DNA of 38,244 bases from Chloroflexota bacterium (GTDB lineage: Bacteria; Chloroflexota; Anaerolineae; Anaerolineales; Anaerolineaceae), in the NCBI GenBank assembly GCA_019136215.1, contig JAGVUP010000084.1, positions 1 to 38,244 of the forward strand, in the 5' to 3' direction. Every line of letters starts with the position of its first letter. The stretch's first letter is position 1. Below are positions 8,200-22,893 of this stretch, piece by piece. The notes below the pieces were generated by a model that saw only the letters and a list, made by a program, of their open reading frames with translations, was not told the DNA's origin and did no database searches. A program made the translations under genes and the position numbers.

Positions 8200-9213
8200 A
8201 TGGATTGGCAGAATAAAGTTGTTCTGGTCACCGGCGGTACCGGCTCGTTTGGCAAAAAATTCATCCGCCTGATGCTGGACGAGTACCATCCGGCAAAGAT
8301 CATCGTTTTCAGCCGGGACGAGTTGAAACAGCACGAAATGCGCACCACCGGCGGATTTGACCACCCATCCATCCGCTACTTTATCGGGGATGTGCGCGAC
8401 CGGGAGCGCCTTTCGCGCGCGTTTTTCGGCGTGGATATCGTCGTACACACCGCCGCGCTGAAGCAGGTGCCAGCCTGTGAATACAACCCGATGGAAGCCA
8501 TCAAGACCAACATTCTCGGCTCCAGCAACGTGATCGAAGCCGCGATCGAAAACGGCGTCAGCAAGGTGATGGCGCTTTCCACCGATAAGGCGGTCAACCC
8601 TGTCAACCTCTACGGCGCCACCAAACTGGCAGCAGAGAAGCTGATGGTGCAAAGCAATGCCTACGCCGGCGGGCGCAACACGCGCATTTCCTGCACGCGC
8701 TACGGCAACGTGGTCGGCTCGCGCGGATCTGTGGTGCCGCTTTTCATCAAGCAGCGCCCCAGCGGTGTGCTGACCATCACCGACGCCCGCATGACCCGTT
8801 TTTGGATCTCACTGGAGCAGGGCGCGCGCTTCGTGATCCGCTGTATCGAACAGATGCAGGGCGGGGAGCTCTTTATCCCGAAAATTCCCAGCATGAAAAT
8901 GACCGACCTCGCCAAAGCGATGGCGCCGGAGGCGGAAATCCGTATCATCGGCATCCGCCCGGGTGAGAAGCTGCATGAGTCGCTGATCTCCGAAGACGAA
9001 GCCCGCACGACCGTCGAACTGGATGACATGTTCGTGGTCCAGCCGGCTGGCGAACCTCTCTGGTTTGGTCACGCCTGGGCAGAAAAAGGACGCGCTCTTC
9101 CCGAAGGCTTCACCTACACCAGCGCGAACAACAGAGACTGGCTGGATGTGGACGGCATCAACGCGATCATCCGCCCGATCGAAGCGGAACTTTCCGCGGA
9201 AGCGAGAAAGTAG
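8200..9213 (+). CDS. pseB: UDP-GlcNAc 4,6-dehydratase, inverting (PseB/CapE-like)
   Basis: This extended SDR converts UDP-GlcNAc to a UDP-4-keto-6-deoxy-hexosamine. The NADP motif TGGTGSFG is at about residues 10-17. The dehydratase triad is D129, K130 and Y138 in STDKAVNPVNLYGATK, with the same spacing as D132, K133 and Y141 in the characterised PseB enzyme. RYGNVVGSRGSV and IRPGEKLHE are also typical, and 337 residues is the family length. PseB is the first step to pseudaminic acid; the close relative CapE/FnlA leads to L-FucNAc. The usual PseC aminotransferase does not follow. Instead an RmlD-like reductase is coupled by a one-base overlap, so the product is uncertain. An AAGGAGAG ribosome-binding site supports the start. 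Confidence 0.85.
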   Translation: MDWQNKVVLVTGGTGSFGKKFIRLMLDEYHPAKIIVFSRDELKQHEMRTTGGFDHPSIRYFIGDVRDRERLSRAFFGVDIVVHTAALKQVPACEYNPMEAIKTNILGSSNVIEAAIENGVSKVMALSTDKAVNPVNLYGATKLAAEKLMVQSNAYAGGRNTRISCTRYGNVVGSRGSVVPLFIKQRPSGVLTITDARMTRFWISLEQGARFVIRCIEQMQGGELFIPKIPSMKMTDLAKAMAPEAEIRIIGIRPGEKLHESLISEDEARTTVELDDMFVVQPAGEPLWFGHAWAEKGRALPEGFTYTSANNRDWLDVDGINAIIRPIEAELSAEARK

Positions 9214-10133
9214 TGACCCGTCTGCTCGTCACCGGCGTCAGCGGCATGCTCGGCGCGAACCTCGCCCTCTTCGCCCAAACCAGGGGCTTTGAGGTCTTGG
9301 GTTGGACGAATTCCCACCCGCTTTTGAATGCGCCTTTGGAGACGCGTTGCGTGGATTTCCGCGACCCGCGTATCCTGGCGGAGGCTTTCGCGGACGCTCA
9401 GGCAGAGATGCTCATCAACTGCGCCGCCCAGGCAAATGTGGACGCGGCTGAAAAACAGCCTGAAGCCGCTTTCCGCGTCAATGCCGAAGCCGCCGGGGAA
9501 CTGGCAAAGATGGCTCACGGCGCTGGGGTTCCCATGATACAGGTTTCCACCGACGCCGTCTTCGACGGCACGCGCGGCGACTACCGCGAGACCGACACGC
9601 CCAACCCGCTCAATATCTACGCTAAAAGTAAACTGGCAGGCGAGCGTGCCGTTGCCGAAGCGAATCCCGATGCAACCATTGCCCGCGTCGTCTTTTACGG
9701 TTGGTCGCTGACCGGCTCGCGCAGCCTCGCGGAGTTTTTCTACAACAATCTCTCTGCTGGCAAGCCTGTGAATGGCTTTACCGACATGTTTTTTTCACCG
9801 CTCTACGTGGGTCACCTGGCAGAAACCCTGCTGGACATGCTCCAAAAACGCCTGAGCGGCATCTACCACGTCTTCGCGCCGGTAAGCTTGAGTAAATACG
9901 AGTTCGGCGTGCGCCTGGCGCGGGAATTTGACCTGGACGCGAACCTGATACGTCCGATTTCCGCCCTTGATTCCGACCTGCCCACCCGGCGTTCACTGAA
10001 CCTGAGCATGAACACCGAAAAATTGCAAGCCGCGCTCGGCAAGCCCCTGCCAAATCAGACGGAAGGACTGCGAGCGCTGCATGCTGACTTTGATTCTGGC
10101 TTGCGCCGGAAATTGCTATCCTTTCATCACTAA
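9213..10133 (+). CDS. RmlD-like sugar-nucleotide 4-ketoreductase
   Basis: This 306-residue short-chain reductase belongs to the dTDP-4-dehydrorhamnose reductase (RmlD) type. The GVSGMLGAN nucleotide-binding motif is at the N-terminus. INCAAQANVDAAEKQPEAA is close to the INAAAYTAVDKAE-type signature, and STDAVFDG and YAKSKLAGE (Tyr-x3-Lys) supply the catalytic residues. It starts at GTG, overlapping the PseB-like stop by one base. The two genes therefore probably act in sequence: dehydration of UDP-GlcNAc, then 4-keto reduction. It lacks the C-terminal cupin seen in CapF, so the L-FucNAc route is not fully matched. Confidence 0.75.
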   Translation: MTRLLVTGVSGMLGANLALFAQTRGFEVLGWTNSHPLLNAPLETRCVDFRDPRILAEAFADAQAEMLINCAAQANVDAAEKQPEAAFRVNAEAAGELAKMAHGAGVPMIQVSTDAVFDGTRGDYRETDTPNPLNIYAKSKLAGERAVAEANPDATIARVVFYGWSLTGSRSLAEFFYNNLSAGKPVNGFTDMFFSPLYVGHLAETLLDMLQKRLSGIYHVFAPVSLSKYEFGVRLAREFDLDANLIRPISALDSDLPTRRSLNLSMNTEKLQAALGKPLPNQTEGLRALHADFDSGLRRKLLSFHH

Positions 10134-10144
10134 TCGGAGGACAC

Positions 10145-11209
10145 ATGGAACTTAAAATTGGAAACACCCTGATCGGAGACAATCACCCCACCTGGTTCAT
10201 CGCAGACATCGCTGCCAACCATGACGGCAGCCTGGAGAGGGCGCTGCTGCTCATACATCTTGCCGCTGAAGCCGGCGCGGATGCCGCCAAGTTCCAAAAC
10301 TTCCGCGGACCGGAAATCGTCTCGGATTACGGCTTCAGTCATATGAATGCGCAGGTTTCGCATCAGGCGAAATGGAAAAAGACCGTCACCCAGGTCTACG
10401 ATGAAGCCTCAGTGCCATTTGAATGGACGCCCATCCTCAAAGAAGAGTGCGACAAGGTCGGCATCACTTACTTTTCCTCGCCCTACGACTTCGACGCCAC
10501 TGACATGCTCGACCCCTACGTGCCCGCCTACAAAATCGGCTCCGGCGATATCACCTGGATCGAAGCCTGTCTGCGCATGGCGCGCAAGGGCAAGCCTGTT
10601 TTACTTGCCACCGGTGCCTCAACTATCGGCGACGTTCAGCGGGCGGTTGATGCCATCCTGGCGGTAAATCCCGAGCTGGTGCTGATGCAGTGCAACACCA
10701 ACTACACTGCCGCTGACGGCAACTTCGACAATATCCATCTTAACGTGCTCAAGGTTTACCGAAAGATGTGGCCCCAGCTTATTTTGGGGCTGAGCGACCA
10801 CACTCATGGGCACGCGACCGTTCTCGGAGCGGTTGCCCTGGGCGCGCGTGTGATCGAAAAGCACTTCACGGACGACAACAACCGCGAAGGTCCCGACCAT
10901 GCCTTTGCCATGAACCCGAAAAGCTGGGCGGAGATGGTCACCGCCACCCGCCAGTTGGAACGCGCCATGGGCTCCGCCAATAAGACGATCGCCGAAAACG
11001 AAGCCGACACGGTGGTGGTGCAGCGCCGCTGCCTGCGTGCCGCGCAGGACATCCGCGCCGGACAGACGCTGACCCGCGGGATGATTGACGTTTTACGCCC
11101 CGCCACACCCGGCGCGATTATGCCTTATGATATTGACCTGGTTGTGGGGCTGACCGCCCTGCACGATATCCCTGCCGGGCAGGAACTGCGCTGGACGCAG
11201 CTTGGATAG
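10145..11209 (+). CDS. NeuB-family nonulosonic acid synthase with SAF domain
   Basis: This enzyme condenses phosphoenolpyruvate with a six-carbon sugar to make a nine-carbon nonulosonic acid. Residues about 15-285 form the TIM barrel. They contain ADIAANHDG (D21 where Glu is usual), AKFQ (K49), KIGSGD, and the probable metal histidines in LSDHTHG and EKHFTDD. Residues about 295-354 form the SAF (antifreeze-like) lid, as in NeuB, PseI and SpsE. At 354 residues it is full length. A GGAGG ribosome-binding site supports the start. It is distinct from the shorter SAF-less paralog at 19711. Lying after a PseB-like gene and before an SpsF-like gene suggests a 6-deoxy-HexNAc-derived product, but the substrate cannot be fixed by eye. 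Confidence 0.85.
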   Translation: MELKIGNTLIGDNHPTWFIADIAANHDGSLERALLLIHLAAEAGADAAKFQNFRGPEIVSDYGFSHMNAQVSHQAKWKKTVTQVYDEASVPFEWTPILKEECDKVGITYFSSPYDFDATDMLDPYVPAYKIGSGDITWIEACLRMARKGKPVLLATGASTIGDVQRAVDAILAVNPELVLMQCNTNYTAADGNFDNIHLNVLKVYRKMWPQLILGLSDHTHGHATVLGAVALGARVIEKHFTDDNNREGPDHAFAMNPKSWAEMVTATRQLERAMGSANKTIAENEADTVVVQRRCLRAAQDIRAGQTLTRGMIDVLRPATPGAIMPYDIDLVVGLTALHDIPAGQELRWTQLG

Positions 11210-12969: not shown

Positions 12970-12982
12970 TGGAGGAATTGAG

Positions 12983-14683
12983 TTGAAAACTGTCGCGATC
13001 ATTCAGGCTCGCATGAGCTCCTCGCGCCTGCCGGGCAAAGTCTTGCGCCTGGTGGGCAGCCAGCCCATGCTGGCGAGGGTCCTGGCACGCGCCAGCCGCG
13101 CGAATCTGGTGGACGAGGTCTTGGTGGCGACCACCAATGACCCCAGCGACGAGCCGATAGCCATTTTTTGCCATAGCGGGGGAATTCCCTGCTTCAGGGG
13201 CGACCTCTACGACGTGCTCGACCGCTACTACCAGGCGGCGAAGCAGGCTGGCGCGGATGTGATCGTGCGGATTACTGCCGATTGCCCTTTTATTGACCCG
13301 CGGGAAATTGACCGGACAATCAGACATTTCTTTGATGCCAGCGCCGACTTCAGCGCGAACCGCCTGCCGCCGCCCTTCAAACGCACCACTCCCATCGGGA
13401 TGGACACGGAGGTCTGCTCTTTCGCGGCGCTTGAGCGCGCCTGGCAGGAAGCCGCTGAGCCTTTTGAACGCGAACATGTGATGCCCTATCTCTACGACAG
13501 CCCTGGTCGCTTTAAGGTGAGTCTCGCCGACCTGGAGGATGACCTCAGCCATCTGCGCTTCACGGTTGACACGCCCGAGGACCTCGAAGTCGCCAACCAA
13601 ATCTACGCCGCTTTTGACAACCGCGACGATTTCTCCCTGCAGGACCTGCTGACTGCCAGCGCGGAGCATCCTGAATGGCAAGCCCAGGTGGCAGGGGTGA
13701 AGCACAAAAACCTTTTCGCGGTCGATCAACGCGCCGACGCGCGGGAGCAAAAGAATGAAACCGCGCAAAAGGAGCCCCCAAATAAGGCTGCCAGACCTGC
13801 CGCGGCGCTCCGCTGCCCGCTTTGCGGAAAATCCGATGCGCGGGTGCTCTCAGAAATGAACTCTTTCGGCTTCAAGGTGCGCTATTACCTCTGCCAGACC
13901 TGCGGCTTTGTTTACCAAAATCCGGGCGAGAGCGCCGCTGCGGATCCTGCGTTTTATGAAGAAACATACCGCCGGCTCTACCAGGAGACCGAAGAACCGA
14001 CTGCCAAAGACCTGCGCCAGCAGCACCTGCGGGCAGAGTCCGAAGTGGGCTTCCTGCGCGAACAGGGCATTTGCTGTCTGAGGCGGGGGCTGGATATTGG
14101 CGCGTCTTCCGGCATATTGCTCCAGACCATCCATGAGGCTTTTGGCGCTGAAATGGTCGGCGTGGAGCCGGGCAATGCCTACCGCAAACTCGCGGAAGCC
14201 AAAGGTTTCCGGCTGTACCCTTCCCTTGAGGATCTGCGCAAGGAAGAAACAGAAAAATTTGACCTTGTAACCATGATACACGTGCTCGAGCACCTCGAAA
14301 ACCCGCTGGGTACGCTCAGGGAGATCAGAGAACACTTGCTGGAAGACAGTGGATTCTTACTGGTAGAGGTGCCCAACTTCTACGCGCACAATTCTTACGA
14401 GCTGGCGCATTTGAGCTGTTTCACTGAACACACGCTGATTGAAATGCTCAAACGGGCGGGATATGAGGCGGTAAGCAGGCGCAAACATGGCTTCCCGCGT
14501 TCCGAGACCCTCGACCTTTACCTGACGGTACTTGCCGCTCCGCGCGCCAAGACCGGCGGAGAATCAAAAATTGTCCCCGAACACGGGGTCGCTTTTAAAC
14601 GCGCTTTGGGTATGTTCAAACGAGGCTTGTTGACCAAACTATTGCCGGACAAAACCTGGCTGCCCATGGAGGATGAAGCCTGA
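12983..14683 (+). CDS. SpsF-like nucleotidyltransferase fused to a zinc-ribbon methyltransferase
   Basis: The 566-residue protein has two parts. Residues about 1-240 are an SpsF/cytidylyltransferase-type domain (IIQARMSSSRLPGKVL, then ADCPFIDP and FTVDTPEDLEV), the group that holds the PseF-like step of Bacillus spore-coat glycan genes. After a charged linker comes a four-cysteine zinc ribbon (C278, C281, C304, C307), then a class I methyltransferase with LDIGASSGILLQ (D371) and HVLEHLENP. That ribbon-methyltransferase order is known from sugar C-methyltransferases. The start is a TTG with GGAGG seven bases upstream; an ATG further up lies inside the lipoprotein gene and is less likely. The two activities in one chain suggest successive steps on one sugar. 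Confidence 0.8.
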   Translation: MKTVAIIQARMSSSRLPGKVLRLVGSQPMLARVLARASRANLVDEVLVATTNDPSDEPIAIFCHSGGIPCFRGDLYDVLDRYYQAAKQAGADVIVRITADCPFIDPREIDRTIRHFFDASADFSANRLPPPFKRTTPIGMDTEVCSFAALERAWQEAAEPFEREHVMPYLYDSPGRFKVSLADLEDDLSHLRFTVDTPEDLEVANQIYAAFDNRDDFSLQDLLTASAEHPEWQAQVAGVKHKNLFAVDQRADAREQKNETAQKEPPNKAARPAAALRCPLCGKSDARVLSEMNSFGFKVRYYLCQTCGFVYQNPGESAAADPAFYEETYRRLYQETEEPTAKDLRQQHLRAESEVGFLREQGICCLRRGLDIGASSGILLQTIHEAFGAEMVGVEPGNAYRKLAEAKGFRLYPSLEDLRKEETEKFDLVTMIHVLEHLENPLGTLREIREHLLEDSGFLLVEVPNFYAHNSYELAHLSCFTEHTLIEMLKRAGYEAVSRRKHGFPRSETLDLYLTVLAAPRAKTGGESKIVPEHGVAFKRALGMFKRGLLTKLLPDKTWLPMEDEA

Positions 14684-15636
14684 TGCCCGCCGCGCTGACG
14701 CTCTTCACTGCTCCCAAACCCTTCACCAACCCGCACATCGCCCTGATTCAGCGCAACGCGCTGCGCAGTTGGCAGGCAATGGGAGAGGACGTTGAAATCA
14801 TCCTGATCGGCTCCGACGAGGGGATCGCGGAAACCGCCGCGGAGCTTGGCATCCGGCATTTACCGGATGTGCCGGTCAATCAGCTCGGCACCCCCCTCAT
14901 CAGCGGCATTTTCAGCCTCGCCCGGAAGGCGAGCCAGAGCCAGCTATTGGCTTATGTCAACGCGGATATCATTCTCTTCCCCAATTTTTTGGAGGTGGCG
15001 CAGCAGGTCGCGGCGAAATTGCCGAAGTTCCTGCTGGTTGGGCAGCGTTGGGACCTCGAGGTGACCGAGTTGCTGGGCTTTGAGGGCGAGTGGGTGGAGC
15101 CATTGCGCCGGCATACCTGGCGAAACGGCATGCTGCATCTGCGGGCAGGGAGCGACTATTTCGTTTTTCCGCGCGCCTGCTTCCAGGACATCCCCGATTT
15201 CACAGTCGGACGCGCCGGTTGGGACAACTGGATGATTTTTAAAGCCCGACAGGAAAACTGGCCAGTTGTGGACTGCACCGCAGACCTGGACATTATCCAC
15301 CAAGATCACGATTACAGCCACTTGCCAAATGGGCAGGCGCATTACCGGCTGCCTGAAACAGGCGAGAACATTCGTCTGGCAGGTGGACAACGCACCATAT
15401 TTAACCTGGACGATGCCTCACACCGTCTGGTACGCGGCAGGATAGAAGTTGTTCCCCGGGATTGGAAGGGCAAACTGCGCGAATTCCAGAATCGTCCAAT
15501 GCTTAAAAATAACAATTTCGCTCTGACCCAACTGTTTTTCACTCTGCTTCAGCCGAGACGCGCCTGGGTCGAGTTTTGGAAGCGCCGTGAAATGCAAAAA
15601 ATCATGCAATCCGCACGGGACGCGGCAAGAGAATAG
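14683..15636 (+). CDS. glycosyltransferase-like protein, GT-A type
   Basis: This 317-residue protein starts on a TGATG overlap with GGAGG upstream. The N-terminal part looks like a GT-A fold. A beta strand (LTLFTAPKPF) leads to LAYVNADIILFPNFLEVA, where NADI sits at the DxD position. GRAGWDNWMIFKARQ is a conserved acceptor-side motif seen in GT-A-like proteins of glycan loci. The C-terminus is basic and amphipathic, suggesting membrane contact. The exact family and sugar are unclear. Confidence 0.6.
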   Translation: MPAALTLFTAPKPFTNPHIALIQRNALRSWQAMGEDVEIILIGSDEGIAETAAELGIRHLPDVPVNQLGTPLISGIFSLARKASQSQLLAYVNADIILFPNFLEVAQQVAAKLPKFLLVGQRWDLEVTELLGFEGEWVEPLRRHTWRNGMLHLRAGSDYFVFPRACFQDIPDFTVGRAGWDNWMIFKARQENWPVVDCTADLDIIHQDHDYSHLPNGQAHYRLPETGENIRLAGGQRTIFNLDDASHRLVRGRIEVVPRDWKGKLREFQNRPMLKNNNFALTQLFFTLLQPRRAWVEFWKRREMQKIMQSARDAARE

Positions 15637-17667: not shown

Positions 17668-18492
17668 ATGAGTGATATCTTTGAAAAATTTGACCTACAC
17701 GGCAGAACAGCTATCGTCACCGGCGGAGCAGGTCTATTGGGGCGGCAATTCTCGCTGGCGCTTGCCCAGGCAGGCGCGAACATCCTGGTGGCAGATCTGG
17801 CTCAAACCGCAGCAGATGCCCACGCCTTCACCCTGCGCGAGCAGGGCTTGCACGCTGAAGGAATTGGCGTGGATGTCACTGACCCCAATTCCACTCGGGC
17901 AATGGCGCAAGCCGCCCAGGAGATTTTTGGCAGCCTTGACATTCTGGTCAACAGTGCCGCGCTCGACCCCAAGTTTGACCCTGCCAATGCTGGCTCGCAA
18001 GGCGCCAACGCGTTTGAGAGCTATTCGCTTGACTCCTGGCGCCAGGCGCTGGATGTCAACCTGACTGGGATGTTTCTCGCCTCACAGGCAGCCGTGCAAC
18101 CCATGCTTGCCGCGGGCAAAGGTGTGATCATCAATATCTGTTCCACCTACGGTCTGGCTGGTCCCGATCAACGACTCTACGAACGCCCCGATGGAACTCG
18201 GTCTTTCAAACCCGTGTATTACTCCGTCACCAAAGCCGGCGTGCTTGGATTCACCCGCTACCTTGCAGCCTATTACGCCGGAAAGAACATCCGCGTCAAT
18301 GCTCTGACCCCCGGTGGGGTTTATAACGGGCATGACGATATCTTCACCGCGCAGTATTCCGCCCGTACCATCCTGGGACGCATGGCGAACATCGATGAAA
18401 TGAGTGCCGCCATGCTCTTCTTATGCTCAGATGCCAGCAGCTACATGACCGGCAGCAATCTGGTGGTCGATGGAGGTTGGACAGCATGGTAG
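17668..18492 (+). CDS. short-chain dehydrogenase next to CMP-sugar synthetase (PtmA-like)
   Basis: This 274-residue classical SDR has TGGAGLLG (cofactor site, about residues 16-23), LVNSAA, INICSTYGLAG and the catalytic YSVTK (Y185, K189), then VNALTPGGV. An insert before the catalytic tyrosine (about residues 165-183) extends the substrate loop. I chose the ATG at 17668; the frame is open upstream, but only this ATG starts the normal N-terminus and it has a weak GAGG site. It overlaps the CMP-sugar synthetase gene by seven bases. SDR genes beside CMP-nonulosonate synthetase genes are known from flagellin-glycan loci (ptmA-ptmB order), which fits a role in the same sugar pathway. Confidence 0.75.
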   Translation: MSDIFEKFDLHGRTAIVTGGAGLLGRQFSLALAQAGANILVADLAQTAADAHAFTLREQGLHAEGIGVDVTDPNSTRAMAQAAQEIFGSLDILVNSAALDPKFDPANAGSQGANAFESYSLDSWRQALDVNLTGMFLASQAAVQPMLAAGKGVIINICSTYGLAGPDQRLYERPDGTRSFKPVYYSVTKAGVLGFTRYLAAYYAGKNIRVNALTPGGVYNGHDDIFTAQYSARTILGRMANIDEMSAAMLFLCSDASSYMTGSNLVVDGGWTAW

Positions 18493-19721
18493 GCAAACCC
18501 GAAGTGCTGGCGCTGATCCCGGCAAGGGGCGGCTCGAAGGGCATCCCTCGCAAGAATATCCGTGATTTTGCCGGTGCACCACTGATCGCCTACAGCATCG
18601 CCGCTGGATTGCAGTCGCAGCACATCACGCGCGTGATCGTCTCGACTGATGACGAGGAAATCGCTGCGGTTGCACGTGAGTGGGGTGCTGAAACGCCCTT
18701 TTTGCGTCCCGCTGAGTTCGCCCGGGACGACACCACCGATCTCCCAGTTTTCCAACAGGCCCTCGCCTGGCTGGCTGAGCACGAACAATATCATCCGGAT
18801 TTTTTGGTGCAATTGCGCCCGACCTCACCAGTTCGACCTGTACATCTGATCGACGAAGCTATCGAACTGATGCTCACCAATCCCCAAGCAGATTGCGTGC
18901 GTGGTGTGGTGCCCAGCGGGCAGAATCCTTTTAAGATGTGGCAGATTGAGCCGGATTCGCATCAGCTCAAACCCCTTTTGAGCCTGCCAGACCTGAAAGA
19001 ACCGTATAACGCGCCGCGTCAGGAACTGCCAAAGACTTTCTGGCAGACAGGTCATGTTGACGTCATTCGCACCAGCACGATTCTTGAAAAAGGCTCTCTG
19101 ACTGGGGATGTGATTCTGCCGGTATTGATCGACCCACGCTATACCGTTGATATCGATACTCCTGCCGACATGGCGCGCTATGCCAAGTTGATGCAGGACC
19201 CTGAACTCCATCCTGTTGATCCACTTAAAAGCCGGCGCGGTTTCCCAACTGATCCCAAACTACTGGTGATGGATTTTGACGGCGTTTTTACCGACGACAC
19301 TGTCATTACTGACCAGGATGGGCGAGAGAGCGTGATCTGCAGCCGCTCGGATGGCTTTGGACTTGATCTATTACGCCAGCAGGGCAAAGTGCAAGCAATG
19401 ATTCTCTCCCGTGAAAAAAATCCGGTAGCCAGCGCCAGAGCTCGCAAACTGAAACTTGAAGCCCATCAAGGTGTGCAGGATAAAGCTCAGGCTATTCAGC
19501 AGCTTATTAATGAACACAATTTAACGCAGGCAGAGGTTATTTACCTCGGTAACGACCTGAATGACCTGCCCGTTTTACCTTTCGTGGGATACTTTGTTTG
19601 TCCTCAGGATGCCCACTCTGAAGTGATTCGTAGGGCTGACCTGGTGCTGAGCAAACCCGGCGGACGCGGCGCTATCCGTGAATTAGTAGAGATTATCCTT
19701 AGGAGCGAACATGAATCGTGA
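18486..19721 (+). CDS. CMP-nonulosonic acid synthetase fused to HAD phosphatase
   Basis: The 411-residue protein has two domains. Residues about 1-235 are an acylneuraminate cytidylyltransferase: ALIPARGGSKGIPRKNI binds CTP, QLRPTSPVR binds the sugar, and VDIDTPAD is the C-terminal motif. Residues about 255-400 are a KdsC-like HAD domain with DFDGVFTDD (nucleophile D263, acid D265), ILSREKN, and GNDLNDLPVL for magnesium. Vertebrate CMAS has the same order, but here the HAD residues look intact. With the adjacent NeuB-type synthase the pair could run synthase, 9-phosphate phosphatase and CMP activation, as in the Kdn pathway. The start ATG has GGAGG upstream; the longer frame reaching back to 18423 is inside the SDR gene. 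Confidence 0.88.
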   Translation: MVGKPEVLALIPARGGSKGIPRKNIRDFAGAPLIAYSIAAGLQSQHITRVIVSTDDEEIAAVAREWGAETPFLRPAEFARDDTTDLPVFQQALAWLAEHEQYHPDFLVQLRPTSPVRPVHLIDEAIELMLTNPQADCVRGVVPSGQNPFKMWQIEPDSHQLKPLLSLPDLKEPYNAPRQELPKTFWQTGHVDVIRTSTILEKGSLTGDVILPVLIDPRYTVDIDTPADMARYAKLMQDPELHPVDPLKSRRGFPTDPKLLVMDFDGVFTDDTVITDQDGRESVICSRSDGFGLDLLRQQGKVQAMILSREKNPVASARARKLKLEAHQGVQDKAQAIQQLINEHNLTQAEVIYLGNDLNDLPVLPFVGYFVCPQDAHSEVIRRADLVLSKPGGRGAIRELVEIILRSEHES

Positions 19722-20589
19722 AGTGAGTATTGGCAACCGCAAGATCGGCGATGGACATCCCGCCTATATTATTGGCGAAATTGGCATCAACCATAATGGT
19801 GACATTAACGTAGCCAAAAAATTGATGGAAGTTGCCAGAAACGTCGGCGCAGATGCGGTTAAATTCCAAAAACGCACGCCAGAGCTATGTGTGCCGGAGC
19901 ATCAGCGCAACCAAATGCGCGACACCCCATGGGGCTATATCACTTACCTTGATTATCGCTACAAAGTGGAATTCGATGAGGAATCTTACACAGAAATCGA
20001 TCGTTTTGCCAGGGAAATCGGTATCGATTGGTTTGCATCCTCCTGGGATATCCCCTCGTTGGAGATCATCAATCGGTTCAATCCGCCCGCCCACAAAATT
20101 CCTTCCGCGCTCCTAACGGACTTGGAACTCTTGCGGGCTTACCGCGCCACAGGCAAGCCGCTGATCGTCTCGACCGGAATGTCCACCCTCAATGAGATCA
20201 AGGCTGCTCTGGAAATCATCGGCGAAGAAAACCTGATCCTCTGCCACACCACTAGCAGCTATCCCTGCCCACCTGAAGAACTCAACCTGCGCATGATCCA
20301 AACCCTGCGCGACATGACCAGCATCTGCCCAATTGGCTATTCCGGGCATGAAGTGGGCTTGGTGCCTTCGGCAGTAGCCGTGGCACTGGGAGCCTGCCTG
20401 ATTGAACGCCACATTACGCTCGACCGCGCCATGTGGGGATCTGACCAGAGCGCTTCCGTGGAACCGCAAGGTCTCGCCAGCCTAGTGAAGTATATTCGCG
20501 TTACGGAACGCTCGTTGGGCGATGGCATTAAGCGCGTCTATGACAGCGAGCTATCTTCGTTAAGCAAGTTAAGGCGGTTTAGCCAGTAA
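19711..20589 (+). CDS. NeuB-family nonulosonic acid synthase without SAF domain
   Basis: This 292-residue TIM-barrel synthase condenses PEP with a sugar or sugar phosphate. GEIGINHNG holds the canonical Glu (E23), VKFQK holds the PEP lysine (K51), KIPSALLTD follows, and the metal histidines are probably those in GYSGHE and ERHITLD. The DRAMWGSDQ-x-SVEP stretch is typical of phosphosugar-type synthases such as those for Neu5Ac-9-P or Kdn-9-P. The chain stops before any SAF lid, unlike the paralog at 10145. The start overlaps the CMP-synthetase/phosphatase gene by 11 bases with a TAGGAG ribosome-binding site. This supports joint function. Confidence 0.85.
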   Translation: MNREVSIGNRKIGDGHPAYIIGEIGINHNGDINVAKKLMEVARNVGADAVKFQKRTPELCVPEHQRNQMRDTPWGYITYLDYRYKVEFDEESYTEIDRFAREIGIDWFASSWDIPSLEIINRFNPPAHKIPSALLTDLELLRAYRATGKPLIVSTGMSTLNEIKAALEIIGEENLILCHTTSSYPCPPEELNLRMIQTLRDMTSICPIGYSGHEVGLVPSAVAVALGACLIERHITLDRAMWGSDQSASVEPQGLASLVKYIRVTERSLGDGIKRVYDSELSSLSKLRRFSQ

Positions 20590-20590
20590 G

Positions 20591-22213
20591 ATGAGAATCC
20601 TGCAGTTAATAGAATGTGTGAGCCGCCAGCTCAAGCTTGAGCTGGCGCATTTCGCCAACGATCGTCGTTTTGCCAACCTCGCCAACCAGGTGAAAGAGGC
20701 TGCGCCAGAGAAGACCGATGCCCCTGTCATTTTCTTCGATGTTTCCACGCGCCTGACAGGCACCAGCCTCAACGCGGCTTTTGCAGCCCTGAGCGCCTGG
20801 TCGCTGGAGCTGAAAGGTGTGCGGGTGATTCATTTTGTGTGTCAGCGAGGTTTGGCGCCCTGTGTTTTCGGCACGAAACGAAACGCCCTGCACCATCAGC
20901 CTCCCTGCGGAGGCTGCACGCGCCAGTCCAGAGCGCTTTTTGGGCAATCTGAGGTTTTCCCTTTTAGCTTCGACGCGGAAGCCCTGCCCCACGGACTGCT
21001 GGAACCGCTCGGGCTCGAGGAACTCAGCCGCTTCACCTATGCGGATTTGCCCCTTGGCGAGCTGGCTCTGCCCTCCATGCGCTGGATTCTGCGCCGGCAT
21101 CACCTGAGCGATGATGAGCTGACCTGTTCTCTGTTCCGGAACTATATCCGCTCTGCCTACTCCCTGGCTCTTCAGTTTGAAGCGCTCATACGGGAGACGC
21201 AGCCTCAAAGCGTGGTGGTGTTCAATGGGATGCAGTACCCCGAAGCCACTGCCAGGTGGGTGGCGCGCAAACACGGCATCCGCGTCATCAGCCACGAAGT
21301 CGGTATGGTTCCCTTCAGCGCTTACTTCACCGAAGGGGATGCCACTGCCTATGACCTCGACATTCCAGCGGATTTTGAATTGAACGAGGCGCAGAATCAA
21401 CGTCTGGATGAATATCTGAGCAAGCGTTTCAAGGGCGATTTCCGCATGGCGGGCGTCAGATTTTGGCCCTCAATGAGCGAGCTGAAGCCGGACTTTCTGG
21501 AAAAAGCTGCTGGCTTCAAGCAGGTGGTGCCGGTTTTTACCAACGTCATCTTCGATACCAGCCAGCCGCATGCCAATGTCGTCTTTGAAGACATGTTCAC
21601 CTGGCTTGATGCCCTGCTGGAAACGGTTAGAGAGCATCCCGAAACGCTGTTTGTCATCCGAGCCCATCCCGACGAAGCCCGCGCGGGCAAAGCCAGCGAG
21701 GAATCGGTAGCGCAGTGGGCAAAAGCACGCTCTTTACGGAAGCATCCCAACCTGCACTTCATCCCGCCCCAGGAATACGTTAACTCCTACGACCTGATCC
21801 GCATGGCAAAATTCGTGCTGATCTACAACTCCACGATCGGTCTTGAGGCCTCCATCCTCGGCGCGGCGGTGCTTTCGGCTGGCAAATCGCGCTACACAGC
21901 TTCTGATGTTGTCTGGCTGCCCCGAACAAAGGAAGCCTATCGCGAAAAATTAGAGGGTCTCCTGGCAGCCGAGACGGTTGAAGCGCCAGCTCACTTCAGG
22001 CGCAACGCCCGACGTTTCCTTTTTTGGCAGCTTTTCCGCTCCTCGCTCAGCTTCGAGGACTTCCTTAAACCGGATGGCGTCTGGGCGGGCTATGTGACCC
22101 TCAAAAAATTCCCCTGGCAGGCGCTCCTGCCCGAAAATTCCGCTGTGCTTCAAACCATTCAGGATGGCATCCTGCGCGGCGGAGATTTTATGCTCAAGGA
22201 GGACCCTCGTTGA
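20591..22213 (+). CDS. capsule-synthesis-type glycosyltransferase, candidate CMP-nonulosonate transferase
   Basis: This 540-residue protein has the same plan as the one at 5669. The C-terminal GT-B-like lobe has the HP motif IRAHPDE (H359-P360) and, about 55 residues on, the S/T motif YNSTIGLEA (S414-T415). These two motifs contact CMP in several sialyl- and Kdo-transferases. The N-terminal half carries a PPCGGC cysteine pair (about residue 100) and FGTKRN, known from capsule polysaccharide proteins. It sits exactly between a NeuB-type synthase and a CMP-sugar synthetase gene, which fits a transferase using their product. The ribosome-binding site is weak and the gap after neuB is one base, so translation is probably coupled. 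Confidence 0.6.
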   Translation: MRILQLIECVSRQLKLELAHFANDRRFANLANQVKEAAPEKTDAPVIFFDVSTRLTGTSLNAAFAALSAWSLELKGVRVIHFVCQRGLAPCVFGTKRNALHHQPPCGGCTRQSRALFGQSEVFPFSFDAEALPHGLLEPLGLEELSRFTYADLPLGELALPSMRWILRRHHLSDDELTCSLFRNYIRSAYSLALQFEALIRETQPQSVVVFNGMQYPEATARWVARKHGIRVISHEVGMVPFSAYFTEGDATAYDLDIPADFELNEAQNQRLDEYLSKRFKGDFRMAGVRFWPSMSELKPDFLEKAAGFKQVVPVFTNVIFDTSQPHANVVFEDMFTWLDALLETVREHPETLFVIRAHPDEARAGKASEESVAQWAKARSLRKHPNLHFIPPQEYVNSYDLIRMAKFVLIYNSTIGLEASILGAAVLSAGKSRYTASDVVWLPRTKEAYREKLEGLLAAETVEAPAHFRRNARRFLFWQLFRSSLSFEDFLKPDGVWAGYVTLKKFPWQALLPENSAVLQTIQDGILRGGDFMLKEDPR

Positions 22214-22893
22214 AACTCGAAAAGATCGTAGCTCTGGTGCCCATGCGTCACGACTCCAAACGCGTCCCCGGCAAGAATTACCGCATGATGTGCGGCAAGC
22301 CGCTCTACGCACATATCATCGAAACTCTTTTGAGCGTAGAAACCATCGACCAGGTGGTGGTGGATACCGATTCTCCGCCGGTGATGGAAGGTCTGGCGCG
22401 GGACTATCCGCAAGTGAAAGTGCTGCTGCGCCCGGAAGAGCTGCGTGCCGACACCACCCCCACGAATGAGATCCTGGTGCACGACACCTCCCTGGTGCCC
22501 GCCGACCTCTACCTGCAGACTCACAGCACCAACCCACTACTCAAAGGGGAAACCATTCGCCGCGCCATTGCTCAACTGTGTCAGTCCTACCCTGAATACG
22601 ACTCGCTATTTGGCGTTACCCGGCTTCAAACCCGTCTCTGGGACGAGCTTGGCAGGGCGGTGAACCACAACCCCGCCGTCCTCCTCCGCACGCAGGACCT
22701 GCCCCCAATCTACGAAGAAAACTCCTGCATCTATCTCTTCACACGCGAAACGCTGCTCTCAAGGCGCAACCGCCTGGGTGAGAGACCAATGATGTTCGAA
22801 ATCGACGCCCGTGAAGCAACAGATATTGATGAGGAACTGGATTTTGTCATCGCTGAAACGCTGATGGCGCATCAAAATAAGGTTCGAGGTTGA
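22210..22893 (+). CDS. acylneuraminate cytidylyltransferase-like enzyme
   Basis: This 227-residue stand-alone CMP-sugar synthetase has a variant nucleotide loop VPMRHDSKRVPGKNY, LQTHSTNPLL at the sugar site and FEIDAREATDIDEELDF near the C-terminus. It starts at TTG, overlapping the previous stop, with a perfect AAGGAGG site in front. It lacks the HAD domain of the paralog at 18486. Neighbouring 2-hydroxyacid dehydrogenase and SDR genes suggest a different or further modified substrate. Confidence 0.8.
   Translation: MKLEKIVALVPMRHDSKRVPGKNYRMMCGKPLYAHIIETLLSVETIDQVVVDTDSPPVMEGLARDYPQVKVLLRPEELRADTTPTNEILVHDTSLVPADLYLQTHSTNPLLKGETIRRAIAQLCQSYPEYDSLFGVTRLQTRLWDELGRAVNHNPAVLLRTQDLPPIYEENSCIYLFTRETLLSRRNRLGERPMMFEIDAREATDIDEELDFVIAETLMAHQNKVRG

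Follow-up and report, generated by a model that had tools for sequence, protein, structure and literature searches.

In the legionaminic acid pathway of Bacillus subtilis, spsF, which putatively encodes a cytidylyltransferase, is required for transfer of legionaminic acid to the spore surface, not for its synthesis (PMC7439481), a requirement consistent with CMP activation. SpsF-like domains also occur joined to a second enzyme: Vibrio B9-25K2 encodes an SpsF–aldo-keto reductase bifunctional protein (PMC7371886). A precedent for methylation of a CMP-activated nonulosonic acid by a SAM methyltransferase is PtmH, which N-methylates CMP-Leg5Am7Ac (PMC3766260).

Here we describe a gene that joins an SpsF-type cytidylyltransferase to a methyltransferase. 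It lies in a 38,244-nucleotide stretch of DNA, the whole of which is referred to as the window: contig 133 of the 222 contigs of genome G000, from an uncultured Anaerolineaceae bacterium, whose close relatives with names are Anaerolineaceae metagenome-assembled genomes (MAGs). As in B. subtilis, the SpsF-type domain belongs to a NeuB-type nonulosonate cluster starting from UDP-GlcNAc; however, B. subtilis SpsF is a stand-alone protein, whereas that of the window shares its chain with a methyltransferase, and the place taken by SpsM, SpsC and SpsD in B. subtilis is occupied in the window by a PseB-like and RmlD-like pair. The Vibrio protein also combines an SpsF-like domain with a second enzyme in a nonulosonate cluster, but the partner, an aldo-keto reductase, differs. 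In contrast to the methyltransferase of the window, PtmH of Campylobacter and ORF 8 of Legionella are encoded by separate genes (PMC3766260); the reaction proposed for the window domain would be of their type, SAM-dependent methylation of a CMP-nonulosonic acid. Our literature searches found no paper on an SpsF–methyltransferase protein; those for Chloroflexi nonulosonic acids and for zinc sugar methyltransferases yielded nothing useful. The combination appears undescribed in searchable papers; it is a new arrangement of known parts and not a new kind of system.

A third partner of SpsF-type domains came to light: fusions with a class III aminotransferase are present in Legionella maioricensis (L040, 8001–10025), a Legionellaceae MAG (L041, 5541–7565) and another gammaproteobacterial MAG (L042, 7506–9533), Pfam having been run on the first and last. 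In these fusions the SpsF-type domain is N-terminal, as it is in the window, and the partner is Aminotran_3 (PF00202).

Two domains in a single open frame

The fused gene and its parts, all on the forward strand, are as follows.

12971–12975, forward: Shine-Dalgarno-like GGAGG, read from the sequence, 7 nt before the TTG at 12983
12983–14683, forward: fused gene of 566 aa, running from TTG to the TGA at 14681–14683, no internal stop
12983–13732, forward: SpsF-type cytidylyltransferase domain, residues 1–250 (PF02348; nearest solved chain 6oew)
13733–13813, forward: linker, residues 251–277, its length and sequence varying among fused relatives
13755–13785, forward: possible trace of overlapping genes (ATG at 13755 in the +1 frame, TAA at 13783–13785 in the +2 frame)
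13814–14680, forward: class I SAM methyltransferase, residues 278–566, with N-terminal ribbon and conserved C-terminal tail (PF13489; fold)
13814–13903, forward: four-cysteine ribbon CPLC-x22-CQTC (C278, C281, C304, C307), from the alignment and the strands of the model

The first domain matches PF02348 (CTP_transf_3) at residues 4–206 with 111.4 bits (E 7e-32), well above the gathering cutoff of 22.6, and its closest solved chain is the cytidylyltransferase 6oew (E 2.7e-34). Three motifs, SSSRLPGK, TADCP and FTVDTPEDL, which we take to be CTP-site motifs with roles as in KdsB-type enzymes, are present and nearly invariant among the fused relatives. The domain nevertheless scores under the cutoffs of the characterized equivalogs KdsB and PseF; for PseF (TIGR03584) it reaches 27.9 bits against a cutoff of 205.7.

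The second domain matches PF13489 (Methyltransf_23) at residues 368–498 (67.2 bits, E 1.8e-18, gathering cutoff 27) and conserves the glycine-rich motif LDIGASSG. Thus the original prediction, that an SpsF-like cytidylyltransferase and a ribbon methyltransferase share one chain, is borne out by two profile matches within a single open frame, and the four cysteines fall exactly at the positions it gave. These cysteines are invariant in all 25 aligned methyltransferases, the predicted model places ribbon strands at residues 286–294 and 297–304, and from the motif they would be expected to hold a zinc ion.

The predicted structure of the methyltransferase domain (pLDDT 91.2) was compared with solved structures using Foldseek. 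KijD1, TcaB9 and MtmC came top (best E 1e-17; next group ∼1e-11), with a moderate TM-score of 0.66, up to 0.69, an rmsd of ∼6 and ∼16–20% identity. From entry titles and general knowledge we take these three to be C-methyltransferases of nucleotide-linked sugars. Methyltransferases of the TcaB9/KijD1 type are defined by a zinc-binding N-domain (PF08421) and a C-domain (PF08484); although these proteins are its best fold matches, the window domain gave no match to either profile at E values up to 1.

The full-length model consists of two well-folded domains (pTM 0.56) and a linker with pLDDT below 50 at residues 259–272. Because the linker is disordered in this model, no domain interface is claimed. 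Both halves of the fused protein are under purifying selection: dN/dS against split relatives is 0.10–0.15 in each, rough values with dS close to saturation. The position of the TTG start is common to four other fused relatives. This codon and its good ribosome-binding site, originally offered in support of the fusion, do support the start of the gene but say nothing for the join.

The surrounding gene cluster

The fused gene lies within a run of genes encoding, in order, PseB-like, RmlD-like, NeuB, GT4, lipoprotein-like, SpsF, methyltransferase and 317-aa proteins, followed by GT2, Gfo/Idh/MocA, SDR, NeuA–KdsC, NeuB, capsule-synthesis-like and NeuA proteins. This order is kept throughout the genus and largely throughout the family. 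The members most relevant to sugar synthesis are listed here.

8200–9213, forward: PseB-type UDP-GlcNAc 4,6-dehydratase (TIGR03589, 486.6 bits, cutoff 407.75)
9213–10133, forward: RmlD-like reductase (PF04321)
10145–11209, forward: NeuB-family synthase 1, with SAF domain (PF03102, PF08666)
18486–19721, forward: NeuA/PseF-like cytidylyltransferase fused to a KdsC-like phosphatase, second set (profile matches)
19711–20589, forward: NeuB-family synthase 2 (PF03102)
22210–22893, forward: third cytidylyltransferase, PseF-like (TIGR03584, 94.4 bits, under the cutoff of 205.7)

Apart from the fusion this is an ordinary surface-sugar gene cluster for a nonulosonic (sialic-acid-like) acid, in which NeuB-family synthase 1 is the likely supplier of the substrate of the SpsF-type domain. 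At 8200–10133 the PseB-type dehydratase is followed by the RmlD-like reductase with no PseC-type aminotransferase adjoining, which hints that the nonulosonic acid carries a hydroxyl rather than an amino group at C7. The cluster holds a second fusion (18486–19721), in which the partner is a KdsC/KDN-9-phosphatase-like domain, and which is kept across the family. The 317-aa protein (14683–15636) has no Pfam or NCBIfam match; in the family its gene comes directly after SpsF or SpsF–methyltransferase.

The methyltransferase is a variable element. In five genomes (G202, G271, L035, L036 and L038) the 317-aa gene comes straight after SpsF and no such methyltransferase is found there; a second genus of the family has several genomes (e.g., G263 and G413) in which it lies ∼1.8 kb from SpsF; in G496 the two are on different contigs. 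Given that it is variably absent or distant, the methyltransferase is best regarded as an optional member of the cluster that became adjacent to SpsF and then fused to it. Furthermore, since genera without it keep SpsF and its neighbors, methylation is dispensable for the core pathway.

Fused and split forms within one genus

Among the congeners searched, 10 carry both domains fused in one frame (the window included) and 10 have two genes. The fused count takes in G476, in which there is a frame break inside the SpsF half, and the split count G480, which begins at a contig end; G462 and G465, cut by contig ends, and seven genomes without a match at threshold were left out of both. Members of the family or order with both genes together (L006, L007, L023, L024, L055 and L061) are split and, as in the split congeners, the two genes often overlap.

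The linkers of the fused congeners are unlike one another. That nine further congeners encode the two domains as a single frame, each with a linker of its own, rules out a sequencing accident as the source of the whole architecture. It had been recognized that the prediction would fail if homologs were always separate, unrelated genes. This is not so: within the genus they form either one gene or two direct neighbors of a syntenic operon. A widespread fusion was likewise rejected: a search of 400 genomes of the phylum returned no fused match outside the genus, and no plasmid record covered 80% of the query.

Mapped onto the two domain trees, the fused state requires three changes on one and four on the other, at least two being forced by well-supported branches; it follows that fusion or fission occurred more than once. 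The join is genuine in the genus: a young, genus-restricted and recurrent merger of two adjacent genes.

What the fused protein may do

We consider it moderately probable that this young fusion of adjacent nonulosonate-operon genes combines CMP activation with methylation of the sugar or of a linked intermediate. The SpsF-type domain would couple CTP to the nine-carbon acid made by the NeuB-type synthase three genes upstream, yielding a CMP-sugar; the tethered SAM methyltransferase would then methylate the CMP-sugar, its sugar, or some further intermediate on the way to this glycan, and the putative zinc ribbon would play a structural role or act on the substrate side. The likeliest order would be CMP transfer first and methylation of the CMP-sugar second, the alternative being methylation before activation or on another residue; here we infer substrate and methyl position as well as step order. 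Since both parts belong to a nonulosonic-acid cluster, activation and methylation of the same sugar is our best guess. Given the flexible linker, fusion probably helps by keeping the two steps close together and their enzymes in equal supply rather than by creating a new catalytic reaction. The lack of PF08421 and PF08484 matches and the moderate TM-scores of the methyltransferase domain speak against this reading.

It is possible, though somewhat doubtful, that the fusion records the history of the operon and nothing more: the methyltransferase would act on a different residue of the same glycan, without coupling. As the methyltransferase is absent from some genera, its acceptor could indeed be another sugar of that glycan. 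The coexistence of fused and split forms at the same operon position in one genus is what such a history would leave, as are the repeated changes of state on well-supported branches, the unlike, disordered linkers and a methyltransferase that in some family members is not next to SpsF. However, within the genus the methyltransferase is always fused to SpsF or directly after it where both are seen, and its nearest folds are nucleotide-sugar methyltransferases.

At the other extreme, we think it unlikely that the chain is bifunctional in the full sense, passing the CMP-sugar between its sites to produce an undescribed methylated nonulosonic acid of the PseB–RmlD branch with no adjoining aminotransferase.

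Less probable again is that the first domain activates some other sugar or acid and is no CMP-nonulosonate synthetase, so that "CMP activation" would be a misnomer. Scores under the KdsB and PseF equivalog cutoffs leave room for this, as do the two further PseF-like proteins of the cluster; indeed, these other NeuA-like proteins could perform the CMP step for either NeuB. Yet the domain far exceeds the PF02348 cutoff, it retains all three CTP-site motifs and NeuB is a near neighbor throughout the family.

Origin of the join in the window genome

In the five nearest species the SpsF and methyltransferase genes overlap. On domain trees the window is the sole fused row of a well-supported clade of eight; the seven split rows are these five species, two of them represented twice. 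Aligned with the linkers of its split relatives, that of the window shows a net one-base gap. It contains a run of five C residues (13775–13779), and with one extra base in this run the window would read as an overlapping pair, the second gene starting from the ATG at 13755, upstream of which lies GGGAG (13743–13747), and with a TAA at 13783.

Judged from these sequence traces, a natural one-base indel is the likeliest origin of the fusion in this genome. The same gap, the restored pair with its GGGAG and the solitary position of the window in its clade would also be expected had an assembly or sequencing indel joined two genes that truly overlap, as they do in the closest relatives. To gauge frame errors, 593 kb of genome stretches were used, in which 99 genes were compared with one congener: three multi-frame matches were left once tandem paralogues had been set aside, and the two examined (L129, 18049, and L148, 771; contigs 25 and 44) are a 10-nt tandem duplication and a ∼20-nt deletion, natural or of assembly origin, neither being a single-base slip. 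Because these indels are multi-base events we favor a natural indel; with nine congeners carrying the fusion regardless, an artifact in the window is the least probable of the readings considered.

Significance of the fusion

Fusions are evidence that two steps share one pathway. This one ties a ribbon methyltransferase to CMP-nonulosonate synthesis, so that its substrate is narrowed and can be tested. The genus also offers a tidy example of overlapping operon neighbors fusing, with both states side by side. Together with the aldo-keto reductase and aminotransferase fusions, the window protein suggests that SpsF has been drawn into fusions repeatedly.
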